Source of the DNA: an uncultured Clostridia bacterium
Lineage (GTDB): Bacteria > Bacillota > Clostridia > Christensenellales > Borkfalkiaceae
Assembly (NCBI GenBank): GCA_947623655.1
Contig: CANQHG010000004.1
Span: 38,081-102,080 of the forward strand
Direction of reading: 5' to 3'
Length of the DNA: 64,000 bases
Made by a program: the position numbers and the translations under genes
Shown: positions 28,884-36,146 of the stretch, one piece after another
How the letters are laid out: each line of letters starts with the position of its first letter
Position numbering within the stretch: the first letter of the stretch is position 1
The notes under the pieces: generated by a model
The model's database searches: none
What the model was told of the DNA's origin: nothing
What the model saw: the letters and a program-made list of their open reading frames with translations, nothing else

Positions 28884-29483
28884 ATGGAAAGTTTTTATGT
28901 CATCCGCGATTTTCTCGCATCGTTGCCCCTCTGGAGTGTGCTTGTCCCGCCCTGCGCTCTTTTTGTGTGCGCTCTGCCTCTTCTTGCATACCGCAAAAAG
29001 AGGGTCTATCTTTGGCTCTCGGCGCTTTGCCTTACGGTCGGCGGACTTCTCGCGTTCGGAAAAGAATTCGTCGCGCCGTATCTTCTCCTCTTTTGCGCGG
29101 AGATCCTTCTCCTTTATCCGCTCTTCTGGATCCGCGGGCGGACGAGGCGCAAAGAGGGACGCGAGGAGGAGCTGTATGGAAAATTCAAGCGCGAGCTCGA
29201 ACAGCCCTTTCCCGAAAAAAAGGAATATCCGCCCAAGGTATGCTGTTTCGAGCAGACGGGCGGCGAGACCGCCGAAGAGCGCGGCATGAAGCTCTCGCAC
29301 GTCATCACCCTTCTGGAGAGACTGAAAAAGGAGAAATTGACCCCCGCCGACCGTCTCGAAGTGGAAATGCTCTCGCGCAACGTTGAAGGGAGCAGCGGGC
29401 GCCCGCTCACGGACAGCCAGACCGACGACCTCAACGACAGTCTCTCCGCCGTTTTACGCCTTGTTGCAAAATACAGCCGCTGA
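28884..29483 (+). CDS. Hypothetical membrane protein
   Basis: Two or three N-terminal TM segments, then soluble charged C-terminus; start chosen after the 28841-28882 hairpin. Confidence 0.7.
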   Translation: MESFYVIRDFLASLPLWSVLVPPCALFVCALPLLAYRKKRVYLWLSALCLTVGGLLAFGKEFVAPYLLLFCAEILLLYPLFWIRGRTRRKEGREEELYGKFKRELEQPFPEKKEYPPKVCCFEQTGGETAEERGMKLSHVITLLERLKKEKLTPADRLEVEMLSRNVEGSSGRPLTDSQTDDLNDSLSAVLRLVAKYSR

Positions 29484-29499
29484 ATTGAAAGCGGACGGC

Positions 29500-30279
29500 T
29501 CAGTAGACGTTTGTGAGCGTATTGACGGTAAGGGCGAGAAGACGGCCTTTTTTGCGGGCGCGGGAGAGCACTTCGGGCGTGATCCTGTCTCCCGCGAGCG
29601 CGACGATCTCTCCCTGTGCGTCGAATACGCTGCGCATCACCCGTCTGCCGAGGAGATTTCTGCCCCCGAGCTCATATTTAAAAGTCTGTTCCGCGGCCTG
29701 CGTTCTCTCTTCGGTCGGCTCTTCTTGCGGTTTTGCTTCGGAGTGCGTCTCTTCGCCCTCCGTTTTTTCGTCGTACGGAAGATTTTGTGAGGGGATGGGG
29801 TCGGACATGGTATCTTCATTTTCCGTCGAAGCCGTTTTAACGGCTTTTTTTAATGCTCTTTTTTTGGGAGCGGGCCGTGCGCCGGAGAGATAGACGATAA
29901 CGCTCTCCTCCGAGGCGACCGCTTCGGCGGGATAGCCCGTTCTCACGCCGTCTTTCACGAGGATGAACGCGGGTTCGCAGTCGCCGAACAGCCAATCGCC
30001 GACAACGCCGAGGTCGTCCCCCTTTTCGGAAAAGGCGCGCACGCCGATGGGGGCGGAGACTCCGGGGGGCGCGGTGACGCGGATCTTCGATGCGATGATC
30101 GCGTCGGAGCAGGCGCGTATGGCGCGGACGGGCAGAATAAAATCTTCCTCGTCGCCGTCCACGGCCGAGAGAGCGGTGAGCGTCTTTAAGTCGCGCGAAA
30201 GGTACGCCCCTGTGACGTACCCGAGTTGTTCTCCCGCTGGGGAGACGATTTTTTTGCCGATAAGCGAAGATAATTGCAT
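29500..30279 (-). CDS. PRC-barrel domain protein
   Basis: MQLSSLIGKKIVSPAGEQLGYVTGAYLSRDLKTLTAL...; PRC-barrel-like N-terminus, low-complexity acidic linker. The ORF-track N-terminal extension to 30510 is rejected. Confidence 0.75.
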   Translation of the reverse strand: MQLSSLIGKKIVSPAGEQLGYVTGAYLSRDLKTLTALSAVDGDEEDFILPVRAIRACSDAIIASKIRVTAPPGVSAPIGVRAFSEKGDDLGVVGDWLFGDCEPAFILVKDGVRTGYPAEAVASEESVIVYLSGARPAPKKRALKKAVKTASTENEDTMSDPIPSQNLPYDEKTEGEETHSEAKPQEEPTEERTQAAEQTFKYELGGRNLLGRRVMRSVFDAQGEIVALAGDRITPEVLSRARKKGRLLALTVNTLTNVY

Positions 30280-30433
30280 AATTTCACCTCTTTGCCCTAT
30301 GGTATGCGAAAAGAGCGCGCGCGGCGAGAAGAAATTTTGCGGGAATAGCGAGGATTTTGTCAAAAATCCCGCCGCCGTCCTTGTTGAAAAGACCCGTGCG
30401 GATCTTTGCGGCGGGAAGGCTCCGAAAGAGGAA

Positions 30434-30611
30434 TGTGGATAACTTATTTTAATGAAAAGTATAAAAAATTTTAAAGATAAGTAAAGATTGTGGCCAAAAA
30501 CACTTGACAAAAAAGCGGGGGGGGGTAAAATAGAGGACGAGAAGTTCTGCTTATAGTTTCCACCTATAATTGTGGATAGGATTCAGCCGATAACGGCTTT
30601 TTTGTGGAAAA
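30434..30611 (+). promoter_or_regulatory. Cluster of DnaA-box-like 9-mers
   Basis: TGTGGATAA (30434-30442, perfect), TGTGGATAG (30571-30579), TGTGGAAAA (30603-30611), same orientation, plus an AT-rich stretch 30440-30490. Confidence 0.5.
30504..30531 (+). promoter_or_regulatory. Sigma-A promoter with G9 homopolymer in the spacer
   Basis: TTGACA (30504-30509), 16-nt spacer ending in G9 (30517-30525), TAAAAT (30526-30531). Confidence 0.8.
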
Positions 30612-30650
30612 CTGTGGCGGACAAAAATTTAAAGAGGAGGGTAAAAAGAC

Positions 30651-33600
30651 ATGAACAAAAAGTTGCGCAGACTGCTCACGGCAGTCGCAGCGACGGGGAT
30701 GGCGCTCGCGATGGCATTTTCTCTTGCGGCATGCGGAGAATCTGCCTACGACCTTGCCGTAAAGCATGGGTTTAAGGGCACCGAGGAAGAATGGCTCGAG
30801 AGCCTCAAGGGGCAAGACGGGCAGGACGGGAAAGACGGTTACAACGGTCTGAACGGACAGGCGGGTACCGATGGCACGAACGGCACCAACGGGAAAGACG
30901 GTACCAACGGGAAAGACGGCATCACGCCCAGCATCGGTCCCGACGGGTATTGGTATTTCGGCAACGAGAAGACCGACTTCAAGGCGGCCGGGACAAACGG
31001 AACGAACGGTTTAGACGGCAAGAGCGTCTATGAACTCTACAAACAGGAACATCCCGAATATAAGGGGACCCTTGCGGAATGGCTTGAGAGCCTCAAGGGG
31101 CAAGACGGGATCAACGGGATCGACGGCGAAGACGGCAAGGACGGCGCGAACGGCGTCGACGGCAAGAGCGCGTTCGAGCTCTACAAACAGGCCTATCCCG
31201 ACTACGAGGGCGAACTCGAAGATTGGCTCGCGAGCCTCAAGGGCGAAACTGGCGCGCAAGGCGCTCCGGGACAAGACGGGGCGGACGGTCAAGACGGTAA
31301 AGACGGCGTGAACGGCGTCGACGGCAAGAGCGCTTTCGAACTCTACAAACAGGCCAACCCCGAATATGAGGGCGACCTCGAACAGTGGCTCGCAAGCCTC
31401 AAGGGCGAGAAAGGCGAGACGGGCGCGCAGGGCGCACAGGGCGAAAAAGGCGAAACAGGCGCAACGGGTGAAAAAGGCGTCGACGGCAGAGACGCCTATC
31501 AGCTCTATGTCGACTGGTTCAGCGCTCAAACGGGCAACGAGGGCAAGAAGCCTCTCACCCTTGAGGAATGGTTCGAGAGCCTGAAAGGACAGGACGGTGC
31601 GGACGGCGCCGACGGTGAAGACGGCGTTACGCCCAGCATCGGTCCCGACGGCTATTGGTATTTCGGCGAACAAAAGACGGATTATAAGGCGACGGGCTCG
31701 GACGGCAAGTCGGCCTACGAGCTCTATGTAGAACAGTACAAAAAAGAGCATTCTGGGCAATCGGATGGGGCCATGTCCGAGGAGGAGTGGCTCGAAAGCC
31801 TTCAAGGCAAGGATGCCGAGCTCGAAGGTTTCTTGACGGGCACGGGCGATCCCGACGTTTCCCTCGGCGCAGAGAAAGATATCTATCTCGATACCGAAAC
31901 GGGCGAGATCTGGCAGAAGGGCAGCGTGTCTTGGTCTAAGAAAGGCTCGCTCGGAAATTTAAGTGCTTCCCACATTAAGGAAGTGAAATACTTAACTCGT
32001 TCTTGGGGATTGACCCAAGGCTTTAACGTCCTTAATAGCGCAGATAGCATGGGCGGAACGCTCAATTATAATGAAAATCTTAAAGTCGGCGGCAGTTCCA
32101 TCGAAGGCTATTGGCTCATATTTGAAAACAACTCTGCTTTTTTCATTCAAAAGAAGTGTTTACATGACAGTGGCACGGGGCAAAACAGTATAATAACAAT
32201 CTATAATGATGATTGCACCTTTGGAACAGTCCAAATTCTTAAATGCGCCTACTGCGGCGAAACAGTGACGCGGGTGAAGGATCCGACAAGCAAACCCACG
32301 CATCGCTATGCAGAAGGGTGGACTTCCGACGAAACGCATCATTGGCATGAAGCTGTTTGCAGTCATAAAGCGGAGCTTGATCCCAAGAAAGACGAACATT
32401 TATGGCGCGAGTATTATACTGTCGATTATGATGAAGGCAGCAGTGAAGTAAAAGGCTATATCAAGTGGCAGGAGTGCAAAATCTGCGGGTTTACGACCAA
32501 CGATAAGATCTCTGCGATCACCCCCGAAAGTTTGTTGCAAGGAGACATTGTACATATTTCCAATGCAGACGAATGGAATGTGTTTGCAAAAGCGGTAAAC
32601 AGCGGTGCTGAATACAGTGATGGAGCGAAAAAGTTTGCCGAAGCGACAGTCGAGTTGGACGGCGATATCAACTTCGGCGGTTTGACGATCACCCCCATCG
32701 GACTTCCCTCCAATGCGGCAGACGTCACCGACCGCGCAAACCTCGCGTATCTTGATTTGAAAGCGGACGCCAATATCGAAGGCGGATTCAAGGGTATCTT
32801 TAACGGCAACGGTCATACGCTCAGCAACTTCGTGCTTGACGGCGGCAACTTCACGGGGCTCTTCGGGTATCTCAACAATGCCAAGATCGAGAACCTCACC
32901 GTAAAGAATGCCACCGTTACAGGCGACGCCTTCGTCGGCGGGGTCGCGGGTTTCATCACGGGTACCGATCTTCGTATTTCCAAAGTCACCGTCATCGATT
33001 CCAAGGTAACGGGGCTCGCCCATATCGGCGGCATCGCGGGCTATGCAAAGGACGCAGGCCCCAAACTCACAAAAGCAAATGCCTCCGATGAGGCTGCGAT
33101 CAAGAACTGCACTGTCATGTCCGAGACCGGAAAAAGCTTCACCAATGATGCAGTTATGCAAATCAAAGCAGTATGTTATGATACAAAGGATACGGACGGG
33201 TATTACTTTGACGGCGCCAATGTGGGTGGGATCCTCGGGACCTCGTACAGTAGCTCCGTTATCGGATGTTATGTAAAAGAAATCAAAATTTCTTACGTCA
33301 CAAGCTTTGCTGGCTTTGTTGGATTTGCCGAGGGTACAAACGAGGCAAAGAGCGTCGTCCTTGGAAATATTTTGTCCGTTGAAGGTGGTCAAAACAACAT
33401 CACCAGTTTGAATGGCGTTACAAAAAACGGTCAGAGTATGGATAAGGACAGACGTACTCCTAAAAGCAAAGTAGGCAAGCTCGAGATGAAACCTGAAGGC
33501 GGAGATTTTTATGTTCGTATGACCACCAATGGAGGAGCCAATGTTTTACGCAGCGGTAATAAGGAAAGCACAACAGAAAAACCGTATGATGAAGCCGGCA

Positions 33601-34580
33601 GCGTAGCCTCCATTGCACTTAGATTGTATAGGCAAAAAGATGCGGAACTGGTTAAAAACATTTCTACCACAACTGACTTGGATACATGGGCGGAGGAAGT
33701 AGATAGTGGGGAAGTATCGTATGCAAATTATACGATCAATCTCATGAACGATATTATTTATCCCAAAGAGGGCGATAATTATTGGTACCCTATCAGTATT
33801 TTCAGGCCGGAAAACAGCCCGCTTGCAAATGCCGTATTCGATGGAAAAGGACACACGATCTACAATTTACATACGGCGGATCAACCCGAGAACCCCTATC
33901 CTTACGGCGTTGGAATGTTCGGTGTCTTGACGGGTACCTTCACCATTCAAAATGTTACTTTTAATGACGCACACATGCACTTTATTAAGGGCGATCTCTA
34001 TGGGAATGTTGGGGCAGTCGTCGTCGGTTACGCCTACGGAAATCTGACCTTCAAAAATGTCACCGTTACAAAAAGCGAAGTCTGGGGATATGGCAAAGTG
34101 GGCGCTCTGCTTGGCATGGGCGCGGACCCCGGCGTAAATATTACATTCAATAATTGCACCGCGACAGACAATCATTTGCACGGGGTGTATAATGTTGGCG
34201 GGTTTGCGGGAAATATCCAGCGGGCTACGAACGGTGATGATAATACGGAGTTCATCGGTACGAACAATGCTTCCAACAATGAGTTCGTTTTGGAAAATAA
34301 TTATGTGACTTTGGACGGCACGGCACAGTTCCTCCCCAACGACCGTACGGGAACCGAATATCCGCAAGCGATCAACGGCTCGTATGTGGATCTTTCCGGT
34401 TATTACTACGGCGCAGTTGCGAAATACTACGTTTCCTACGGTAGTTCCTCGCATGACCCTGTATTTACGGGAACGATGACGCAGGGTACGACCGTGACGA
34501 CAGACTTTAGCTGTAAGATCGCCAACAGCGAAGTCTGCATTGATACGCCGCATCCGTTCCGTGAAAAGACGTCGGCATAA
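30651..34580 (+). CDS. Large surface lipoprotein with collagen-like Gly-X-Y tracts, ELYKQ...EEWLxSLKG spacers and GLUG-like repeats
   Basis: SD gaggaggg; signal peptide plus lipobox LAMAFSLAACGES; GQDGQDGKDG.../GEKGETGAQGAQGEKGETGATG triplets; NGNGHTLSNFVLDGGNFTGLFGYLNNAKIENLTVKNATVTGDAFVGGVAGF. Confidence 0.9.
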   Translation: MNKKLRRLLTAVAATGMALAMAFSLAACGESAYDLAVKHGFKGTEEEWLESLKGQDGQDGKDGYNGLNGQAGTDGTNGTNGKDGTNGKDGITPSIGPDGYWYFGNEKTDFKAAGTNGTNGLDGKSVYELYKQEHPEYKGTLAEWLESLKGQDGINGIDGEDGKDGANGVDGKSAFELYKQAYPDYEGELEDWLASLKGETGAQGAPGQDGADGQDGKDGVNGVDGKSAFELYKQANPEYEGDLEQWLASLKGEKGETGAQGAQGEKGETGATGEKGVDGRDAYQLYVDWFSAQTGNEGKKPLTLEEWFESLKGQDGADGADGEDGVTPSIGPDGYWYFGEQKTDYKATGSDGKSAYELYVEQYKKEHSGQSDGAMSEEEWLESLQGKDAELEGFLTGTGDPDVSLGAEKDIYLDTETGEIWQKGSVSWSKKGSLGNLSASHIKEVKYLTRSWGLTQGFNVLNSADSMGGTLNYNENLKVGGSSIEGYWLIFENNSAFFIQKKCLHDSGTGQNSIITIYNDDCTFGTVQILKCAYCGETVTRVKDPTSKPTHRYAEGWTSDETHHWHEAVCSHKAELDPKKDEHLWREYYTVDYDEGSSEVKGYIKWQECKICGFTTNDKISAITPESLLQGDIVHISNADEWNVFAKAVNSGAEYSDGAKKFAEATVELDGDINFGGLTITPIGLPSNAADVTDRANLAYLDLKADANIEGGFKGIFNGNGHTLSNFVLDGGNFTGLFGYLNNAKIENLTVKNATVTGDAFVGGVAGFITGTDLRISKVTVIDSKVTGLAHIGGIAGYAKDAGPKLTKANASDEAAIKNCTVMSETGKSFTNDAVMQIKAVCYDTKDTDGYYFDGANVGGILGTSYSSSVIGCYVKEIKISYVTSFAGFVGFAEGTNEAKSVVLGNILSVEGGQNNITSLNGVTKNGQSMDKDRRTPKSKVGKLEMKPEGGDFYVRMTTNGGANVLRSGNKESTTEKPYDEAGSVASIALRLYRQKDAELVKNISTTTDLDTWAEEVDSGEVSYANYTINLMNDIIYPKEGDNYWYPISIFRPENSPLANAVFDGKGHTIYNLHTADQPENPYPYGVGMFGVLTGTFTIQNVTFNDAHMHFIKGDLYGNVGAVVVGYAYGNLTFKNVTVTKSEVWGYGKVGALLGMGADPGVNITFNNCTATDNHLHGVYNVGGFAGNIQRATNGDDNTEFIGTNNASNNEFVLENNYVTLDGTAQFLPNDRTGTEYPQAINGSYVDLSGYYYGAVAKYYVSYGSSSHDPVFTGTMTQGTTVTTDFSCKIANSEVCIDTPHPFREKTSA

Positions 34581-34590
34581 CGCAATTTGA

Positions 34591-34632
34591 AAAAATAACT
34601 CACCTGCAGTGCAGGTGAGTTATTTTTTGCGC
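34591..34632 (+). terminator. Intrinsic terminator of the lipoprotein gene
   Basis: aaaaaataactcacctgcagtgcaggtgagttatttttt. Confidence 0.9.
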
Positions 34633-34697
34633 TTTTTCGCCTTAAAATACCAAAAAGTTGCTTATTTCGATAATTATCGAAATAATGATTTCTGCTC

Positions 34698-35072
34698 TTG
34701 CCCCCTCCCGAGGAGGGGGGGTAGGGGGGTGGGCAACGATTCCAGAACATGCCCACCTCAGTCGCCTGTGGCGACAGCTCCTCCTTGGGAGGCGCCTTAC
34801 GACCCCAATGGGGGGAGGCCTCTTGCCCCCTCCCGAGGAGGGGGGGTAGGGGGGTGGGCAACGATTTCAGAACATGCCCACCTCAGTCGCCTGTGGCGAC
34901 AGCTCCTCCTTGGGAGGAGCCTTACGACCCCAATGGGGGGAGGCCTTTTGCCCCCTCCCGAGGAGGGGGGTAGGGGGGTGGGCAACGATTCCAGAACATG
35001 CCCACCTCAGTCGCCTGTGGCGACAGCTCCTCCTTGGGAGGAGCCTTGCGACCCTATAGGGGGGGAGGCCTT
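34698..35072. repeat. Three tandem ~125-bp GC-rich palindromic repeat units
   Basis: Unit ccccctcccgaggaggggggtaggggggtgggcaacgattccagaacatgcccacctcagtcgcctgtggcgacagctcctccttgggaggagccttacgaccccaatggggggaggcc starts at 34701, 34826, 34951; degenerate relative near 63497. Confidence 0.92.
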
Positions 35073-35084
35073 GTTCAACGCAAC

Positions 35085-35120
35085 AAAAAAAGCGCACCAT
35101 GAGGTGCGCTTTTTTTGCTT
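35085..35120. terminator. Terminator 3' of gapA
   Basis: aaaaaaagcgcaccatgaggtgcgctttttttgc. Confidence 0.85.
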
Positions 35121-35123
35121 TGA

Positions 35124-36146
35124 TTACAGTTCCGCGAAATATTTGATCGTACGGACCATCTGAGAAGTGTAGCTGTTCTCGTTGTCGTACCACGCAACGA
35201 CCTGCACCTGATAGGTATCGTCGTCGATCTTCGTGACCATTGTCTGGGTCGCGTCGAAGAGGGAACCGTAGGTGATGCCGATAACGTCGGAGGAGACGAG
35301 CTGTTCCTCGGTATAGCCGAACGACTTGGAAGCGGCCGCCTTCATCGCGGCGTTGATAGACTCTTTCGTGATCTCTTTTCCCTTGACGACCGCGACGAGA
35401 ATGGTGGTGGAGCCGGTGGGAACGGGAACGCGCTGTGCGCTGCCGATGAGCTTGCCGTTGAGGGCGGGGATGACGAGGCCGATCGCTTTCGCCGCGCCCG
35501 TGGAGTTGGGAACGATGTTGACGGCCGCGGCGCGCGCACGTCTCAGATCGCCCTTTCTATGAGGCCCGTCGAGAACCATCTGGTCGCCCGTGTAGGCGTG
35601 AACGGTCGTCATGATGCCCGAAACGATGGGATATGCCTTATTGAGCGCGTCTGCCATGGGAGCGAGGCAGTTCGTCGTGCAGCTGGCGGCGGAAATAACG
35701 GTGTCTTCTTTCTTCAGGGTCTTTTCGTTGACGCCGTAGACGATCGTGGGAAGGTCTTTGCCCGCGGGAGCGGAGATGACGACTTTCTTCGCGCCTGCGT
35801 CGATGTGCGCCTGCGCTTTCTCTTTCGAGGTGTAGAAGCCCGTGCACTCGAGCACGACGTCTACGTCGAGTTCGCCCCAAGGCAGATTCTTAGCGTCCTT
35901 TTCCTCGTAAATTTTGATGGTCTTGCCGTCAACGGTGAGCGTTCTCTCTTCGTCGTTCGCGAAAACGGTGTCGGCAAGGGCATATCTGCCCTGCGCACTG
36001 TCGTACTTGAGAAGGTGTGCGAGCATCGTAGGCGTGGTGAGGTCGTTGATGGCGACGATCTCATACCCCTTTGCGCCGAACATCTGTCTGAATGCGAGAC
36101 GGCCGATGCGTCCGAATCCGTTGATTGCAACCTTTACGTTTGCCAT
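35124..36146 (-). CDS. gapA: Glyceraldehyde-3-phosphate dehydrogenase, type I
   Basis: [56 protein letters not shown]. Confidence 0.96.

Follow-up and report, generated by a model that had tools for sequence, protein, structure and literature searches.

Expression of bacterial surface structures can depend on homopolymer tracts at promoters. The Bordetella fim genes carry a poly-C tract near the promoter boxes, the length of which controls a surface structure. The fim promoters are activator-dependent and have C where the promoter described here has G, the two systems being alike in the position of a homopolymer near the promoter boxes of a surface-structure gene. Bordetella homopolymer tracts have been the subject of a survey (PMC1891110). 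The promoters of the Neisseria surface-protein genes porA and fetA have their homopolymer between the two boxes (PMC5320596, PMC7864442). In Treponema pallidum a poly-G tract lies between the -35 and -10 boxes of tp0126, which codes for an OmpW homologue and is best expressed at a total spacer length of 17 nt (PMC7864442). Promoter poly-G tracts of 7-11 are also found at the T. pallidum surface-protein genes tprE/G/J and tprL, the latter showing in vivo one length in most molecules with minorities within 7-11 (PMC7864442).

The locus analysed here shares with porA, fetA and tp0126 the homopolymer between the boxes, at least 8 nt long, and with the tpr genes the poly-G tract in promoters of surface proteins. 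The original prediction had drawn the parallel to Bordetella fim, which is right in kind, while porA and tp0126 are closer (PMC7864442, PMC5320596). The described cases concern few genes. Those of Neisseria, with poly-G or poly-C, were shown to switch and code for Gram-negative outer membrane proteins, and tp0126 is a single gene of a spirochaete pathogen with a demonstrated effect of tract length. In contrast, the promoters described below form a multi-gene class of uncultured Clostridia that is recognized by its sequence architecture and is predicted to switch. A search of open-access papers found no account of a poly-G spacer promoter design in Clostridia.

The promoter and the lipoprotein gene of the window

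The window, which is the whole stretch of 64,000 nt that was analysed, belongs to an uncultured Clostridia bacterium. Direct reading of its plus strand gives a -35 box TTGACA (30504-30509), a 16-nt spacer (30510-30525) composed of AAAAAGC and nine Gs (30517-30525), and a -10 box TAAAAT (30526-30531) that the G9 tract abuts, as originally predicted. The site is the top promoter-like match of a consensus scan of positions 29400-35200, with 11 of 12 consensus positions, and the scan gave no other plus-strand candidate between it and the lipoprotein ATG (30651), located 120 nt from the -10 box. The AAAAACAC stretch adjoining the 5' side of the -35 box (30496-30503, plus strand) is kept in 18 aligned relatives and lies within a blastn core that is 85-98% identical. 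Relatives have in common the sequence CTTGACA at the -35 box and carry tracts of G7-G10, while the -10 box is common to the close promoter family.

The predicted 5' leader (30538-30650, plus strand), whose start is placed from the position of the -10 box, ends downstream of a ribosome-binding site AGGAGG (30635-30640) and folds no better than its shuffled versions (z -1.25). It has a terminator-like AGCCG-ATAA-CGGCT hairpin followed by a T run (30585-30603) that is found in the window copy only, the 17 other leaders of the alignment being gapped there. A riboswitch or attenuator is not claimed because the leader fold is ordinary and the hairpin is confined to the window copy. Rfam gave no match at the promoter site and phage records searched with the promoter region gave none either.

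The downstream gene (30651-34580, plus strand) codes for a protein of 1309 aa that has a lipoprotein signal (MNKKLRRLLTAVAATGMALAMAFSLAAC followed by G) and collagen repeats (Pfam PF01391, E 2.9e-18), in agreement with the collagen-like lipoprotein that had been proposed. Both features indicate that the protein is probably exposed at the cell surface. WL-SL-G segments are repeated in it, and its carboxyl-terminal part weakly resembles pectate lyases. A protein search found relatives of parts of this protein in 87 of 103 genomes of the genus. The near relative L021, found in a scan of genome contigs, is 94% identical, and its promoter is outside the comparison because the contig starts inside the gene. 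The intergenic region is bounded on the other side by a divergent gene coding for a PRC-barrel protein (29503-30279, minus strand). Repeated DNA follows the lipoprotein gene immediately (34609-35160), with recurring ORF fragments such as HLSRLWRQLLLG. A gene for the large bacterial SRP RNA (Rfam RF01854; 63755-64000, minus strand) is cut by the window end.

Recurrence of the design and its target genes

In a blastn search of 101 genomes of the same genus with positions 30440-30720, the part that recurs is the core 30496-30536; it is present in 21 other genomes, one of which has as many as seven copies. Nearly all copies fetched have TTGACA, a spacer part and G7 to G10 followed by a -10 box. 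The design was then defined by the pattern TTGACAN{2,14}GGGGGGGN{0,2}TANNNT, the reversed pattern serving as control. Matches were found in 69 of the 103 genus genomes; those listed comprise about 150 sites, versus 1 for the reversed control. A run of G per se is not rare, GGGGGGGG having 3 matches in the window for 1.97 expected; what makes the run notable is its place between the two boxes, which is far from chance given the ratio of pattern to control sites. At the family scale the pattern is found in 92 of 301 genomes, covering 12 of 18 genera, and at the order scale in 41 of 200 genomes with two families rich in it, while it is rare in the rest of the class (11 of 274 genomes). The tract is carried by 170 distinct spacer sequences across unrelated spacers, genes and genera. 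The G9 promoter of the window is one copy of a design common to well over 100 genes in this order of Clostridia, most of them coding for surface proteins.

A lipobox was recognized in 66 of 110 distinct downstream genes versus 3 of 47 window genes (gene calls and lipobox rule being simple scripts); the associated Fisher p value of 5e-11 is optimistic because the target set, mostly promoter or pattern hits, contains many paralogues and a few loci (L163-L192) fetched by protein search. Pfam analysis of 70 target proteins identified collagen repeats in 10, BspA-type leucine-rich repeats in 7, ABC transporters in 6 and Big_2 domains in 5. Four orthologous ABC-transporter promoters from three genera (L100, L115, L141 and L146) all have G9 in spacers that are otherwise unalike.

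The window's own genome (G000) has four further promoter-like sites with G8-G10 and no match to the reversed pattern. A G10 tract in a 20-nt spacer leading to a weak -10 box precedes a lipoprotein gene (L063), and a G8 tract precedes a gene whose product weakly matches camelysin (L083). The other two sites stand before related genes for secreted or membrane proteins on contig C2, with G8 in a 19-nt spacer at ~36.6 kb (L067) and G9 in a 20-nt spacer at ~51.2 kb (L068). These two promoters are duplicates, identical in both boxes and in the non-G part of the spacer, with tracts that differ by one G. In both of them the tract adjoins the -35 box. An identical 31-nt promoter, TTGACAATCAAAAACC-G9-TAAAAT, was found before related lipoproteins in L039 (G088:C7) and in another genus in L150 (G250:C7), which suggests either transfer of the gene with its promoter or a misassigned contig.

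Spacer length and base preference

Consensus promoters without a G tract listed in G000 and G098 have a 17-nt spacer in 116 of 144 cases (81%), which bears out, for these genomes, the original premise that a G10 tract would bring the window promoter to an optimal spacing of 17 nt. Among unique G-tract promoters of the genus selected by the same -10 rule, 17 nt is found in 6 of 84 (7%), with modes at 15 and 18 (Fisher p about 2e-29), and the window promoter has 16. The tract keeps promoters off the spacing that ordinary promoters use in the same cells. Off-17 spacing may correspond to an off or weak promoter. G-tract DNA takes an A-like form and can be read by proteins (PMC3902906), and such a geometry could itself shift the optimum spacing. 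Tracts span G7-G15, with one G23, in spacers of 13-22 nt; their mode is G9, which is not a decay from G7.

Tracts next to the -10 box are strongly biased towards G, with 3 C-tract sites versus ~150 G-tract sites among the matches listed. C8-C9 tracts nearer the -35 box are found in 19 genomes, the inspected cases being mostly before genes for lipoproteins or secreted proteins. Those of L152-L154 and L211-L217, all from the same genus, often have an extended -10 box (TGn). The base is not essential, since lipoprotein genes also have promoters with C tracts in these spacers, which speaks for slippage in general but leaves the preference for G unexplained. A weak AC precedes the tract on its 5' side (C 62%, A 48%).

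Tract length between copies and roles of the tract

Tract lengths were read from metagenomic assemblies, in which homopolymer errors are possible and the consensus gives the majority length only; at T. pallidum tprL, too, one length prevails among the molecules (PMC7864442). Sites of the same genome with identical boxes and non-G spacers form 17 groups, 8 of which differ in G count. Spacer length is 16 nt in L013, 14 nt in L109 and 15 nt in L111, three close orthologues whose flanks are 95-97% identical. Orthologues of the window gene have G7 (L114), G8 (L118) or G9 (L094, L117 and L178), and one (L173) is without tract and has a plain G-free spacer of 17 nt. Where the 7-nt non-G part is the same, members of the window promoter family nearly all have G8, the G9 of the window being among the exceptions. 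Their flanks are on average only about 60-85% identical, and tract length in this family looks held rather than scrambled. Free switching in the window family is disfavoured because G8 is near-constant despite the diverged flanks. Taken together, the length differences are compatible with switching and fall short of proof.

The reading that we favour, with a probability of about 0.6, is that these are slippage-tuned sigma-A promoters of the porA and tp0126 kind, used across the lineage as a repertoire. The G tract would be the variable part of a class of surface-protein promoters spread over the genus and the order, in which the boxes are close to the sigma-A consensus and the G count would set the distance between them. 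Most G-tract promoters have spacers of 15, 16, 18 or 19 nt, putatively one or two slips away from the usual 17, and replication slippage in tracts of at least eight Gs would bring individual cells to 17 nt or take them away from it. Expression of each surface protein would then be heterogeneous and reversible, a diversity that might be beneficial against phages, immunity or competitors. The slippage switch originally suggested for the window promoter gains from the recurrence of the design and from paralogues and orthologues that sometimes differ only in G count, but it does not sit well with the near-constant G8 of the window's own family.

That constancy is better accommodated if the tract is a fixed element, its A-like geometry or a regulator reading it making a weak or regulated off-17 promoter common to a surface-protein regulon. 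This account, the main rival of the favoured reading, is tenable though rather unlikely. It would give meaning to the avoidance of 17 nt, to the AC 5' of the tract and to the choice of G over C adjoining the -10 box, for which slippage alone gives no reason, and it agrees with the known properties of G tracts (PMC3902906). Tract length and position vary widely, however, promoters that are the same in all else differ by one or two Gs, C tracts occur with the same kinds of target, and no further operator sequence shared among the spacers was found. A combination, in which the poly-G spacer is a slippage site and also marks its own promoter class, with an A-like tract adjoining the -10 box, avoidance of 17 nt and an order-wide dependence on a shared factor or supercoiling, is more speculative and regarded as unlikely.

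A specific regulator came into consideration with the related promoter L017, which stands before a CsoR-family gene (Trns_repr_metal, E 2.1e-18) and has an operator-like spacer TACC-N4-GGGGGTA. Operators of CsoR/RcnR-family repressors contain G tracts, and known CsoR sites have a TAC-X9-GTA dyad (PMC3902906). Direct reading of the window site found no such dyad around the tract, and it is present in only 3 of 170 distinct spacers, a count that mostly refutes the candidate; the targets are moreover lipoproteins and not metal genes. The tract as an operator of this kind is thus rejected as highly improbable. It is also quite improbable that the tract is functionless and was carried along with duplicated lipoprotein genes. 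Recurrence is partly due to paralogy, and the window family shares also 50-60 bp of upstream sequence, but the diversity of spacers, genes and genera carrying the tract goes beyond duplication, the four ABC-transporter promoters keep G9 with no other common spacer sequence, and a G9 mode is not what neutral decay would leave.

Slippage-tuned promoters are described so far for few genes of few pathogens, and here they would serve a lipoprotein repertoire across a lineage of Clostridia that are mostly uncultured, a single genome having as many as about a dozen copies. If switching is true, surface diversity would be built promoter by promoter. It would then matter for strain tracking as well as for predation by phages and recognition by immunity, and would be hidden in standard assemblies. 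With so sharp a contrast at 17 nt (81% versus 7%), existing reads could give a direct test of the question.

Among the G-tract sites listed (~150), seven are ~110 bp or less from the low end of their contig (G021:C89, G082:C95, G095:C32, G030:C40, G047:C14, G065:C74 and G065:C88), apparently more than expected, and six of these contigs stop just downstream of the G-tract promoter. Repeats or mixtures of tract lengths could break assembly at these positions. Two other G tracts were observed in the window's genome. A G8 tract on contig C6 (L080) lies inside the inverted repeat GCAGATCT...AGATCTGC, which closely precedes a gene for a PfkB-family sugar kinase. On contig C43 a G11 tract (L090:838-848) is found within an N4/N6 DNA methylase gene that has phage-like neighbours and a reading frame broken at this tract; by analogy with phase-variable methylases, this is the classic coding form of the slippage device.
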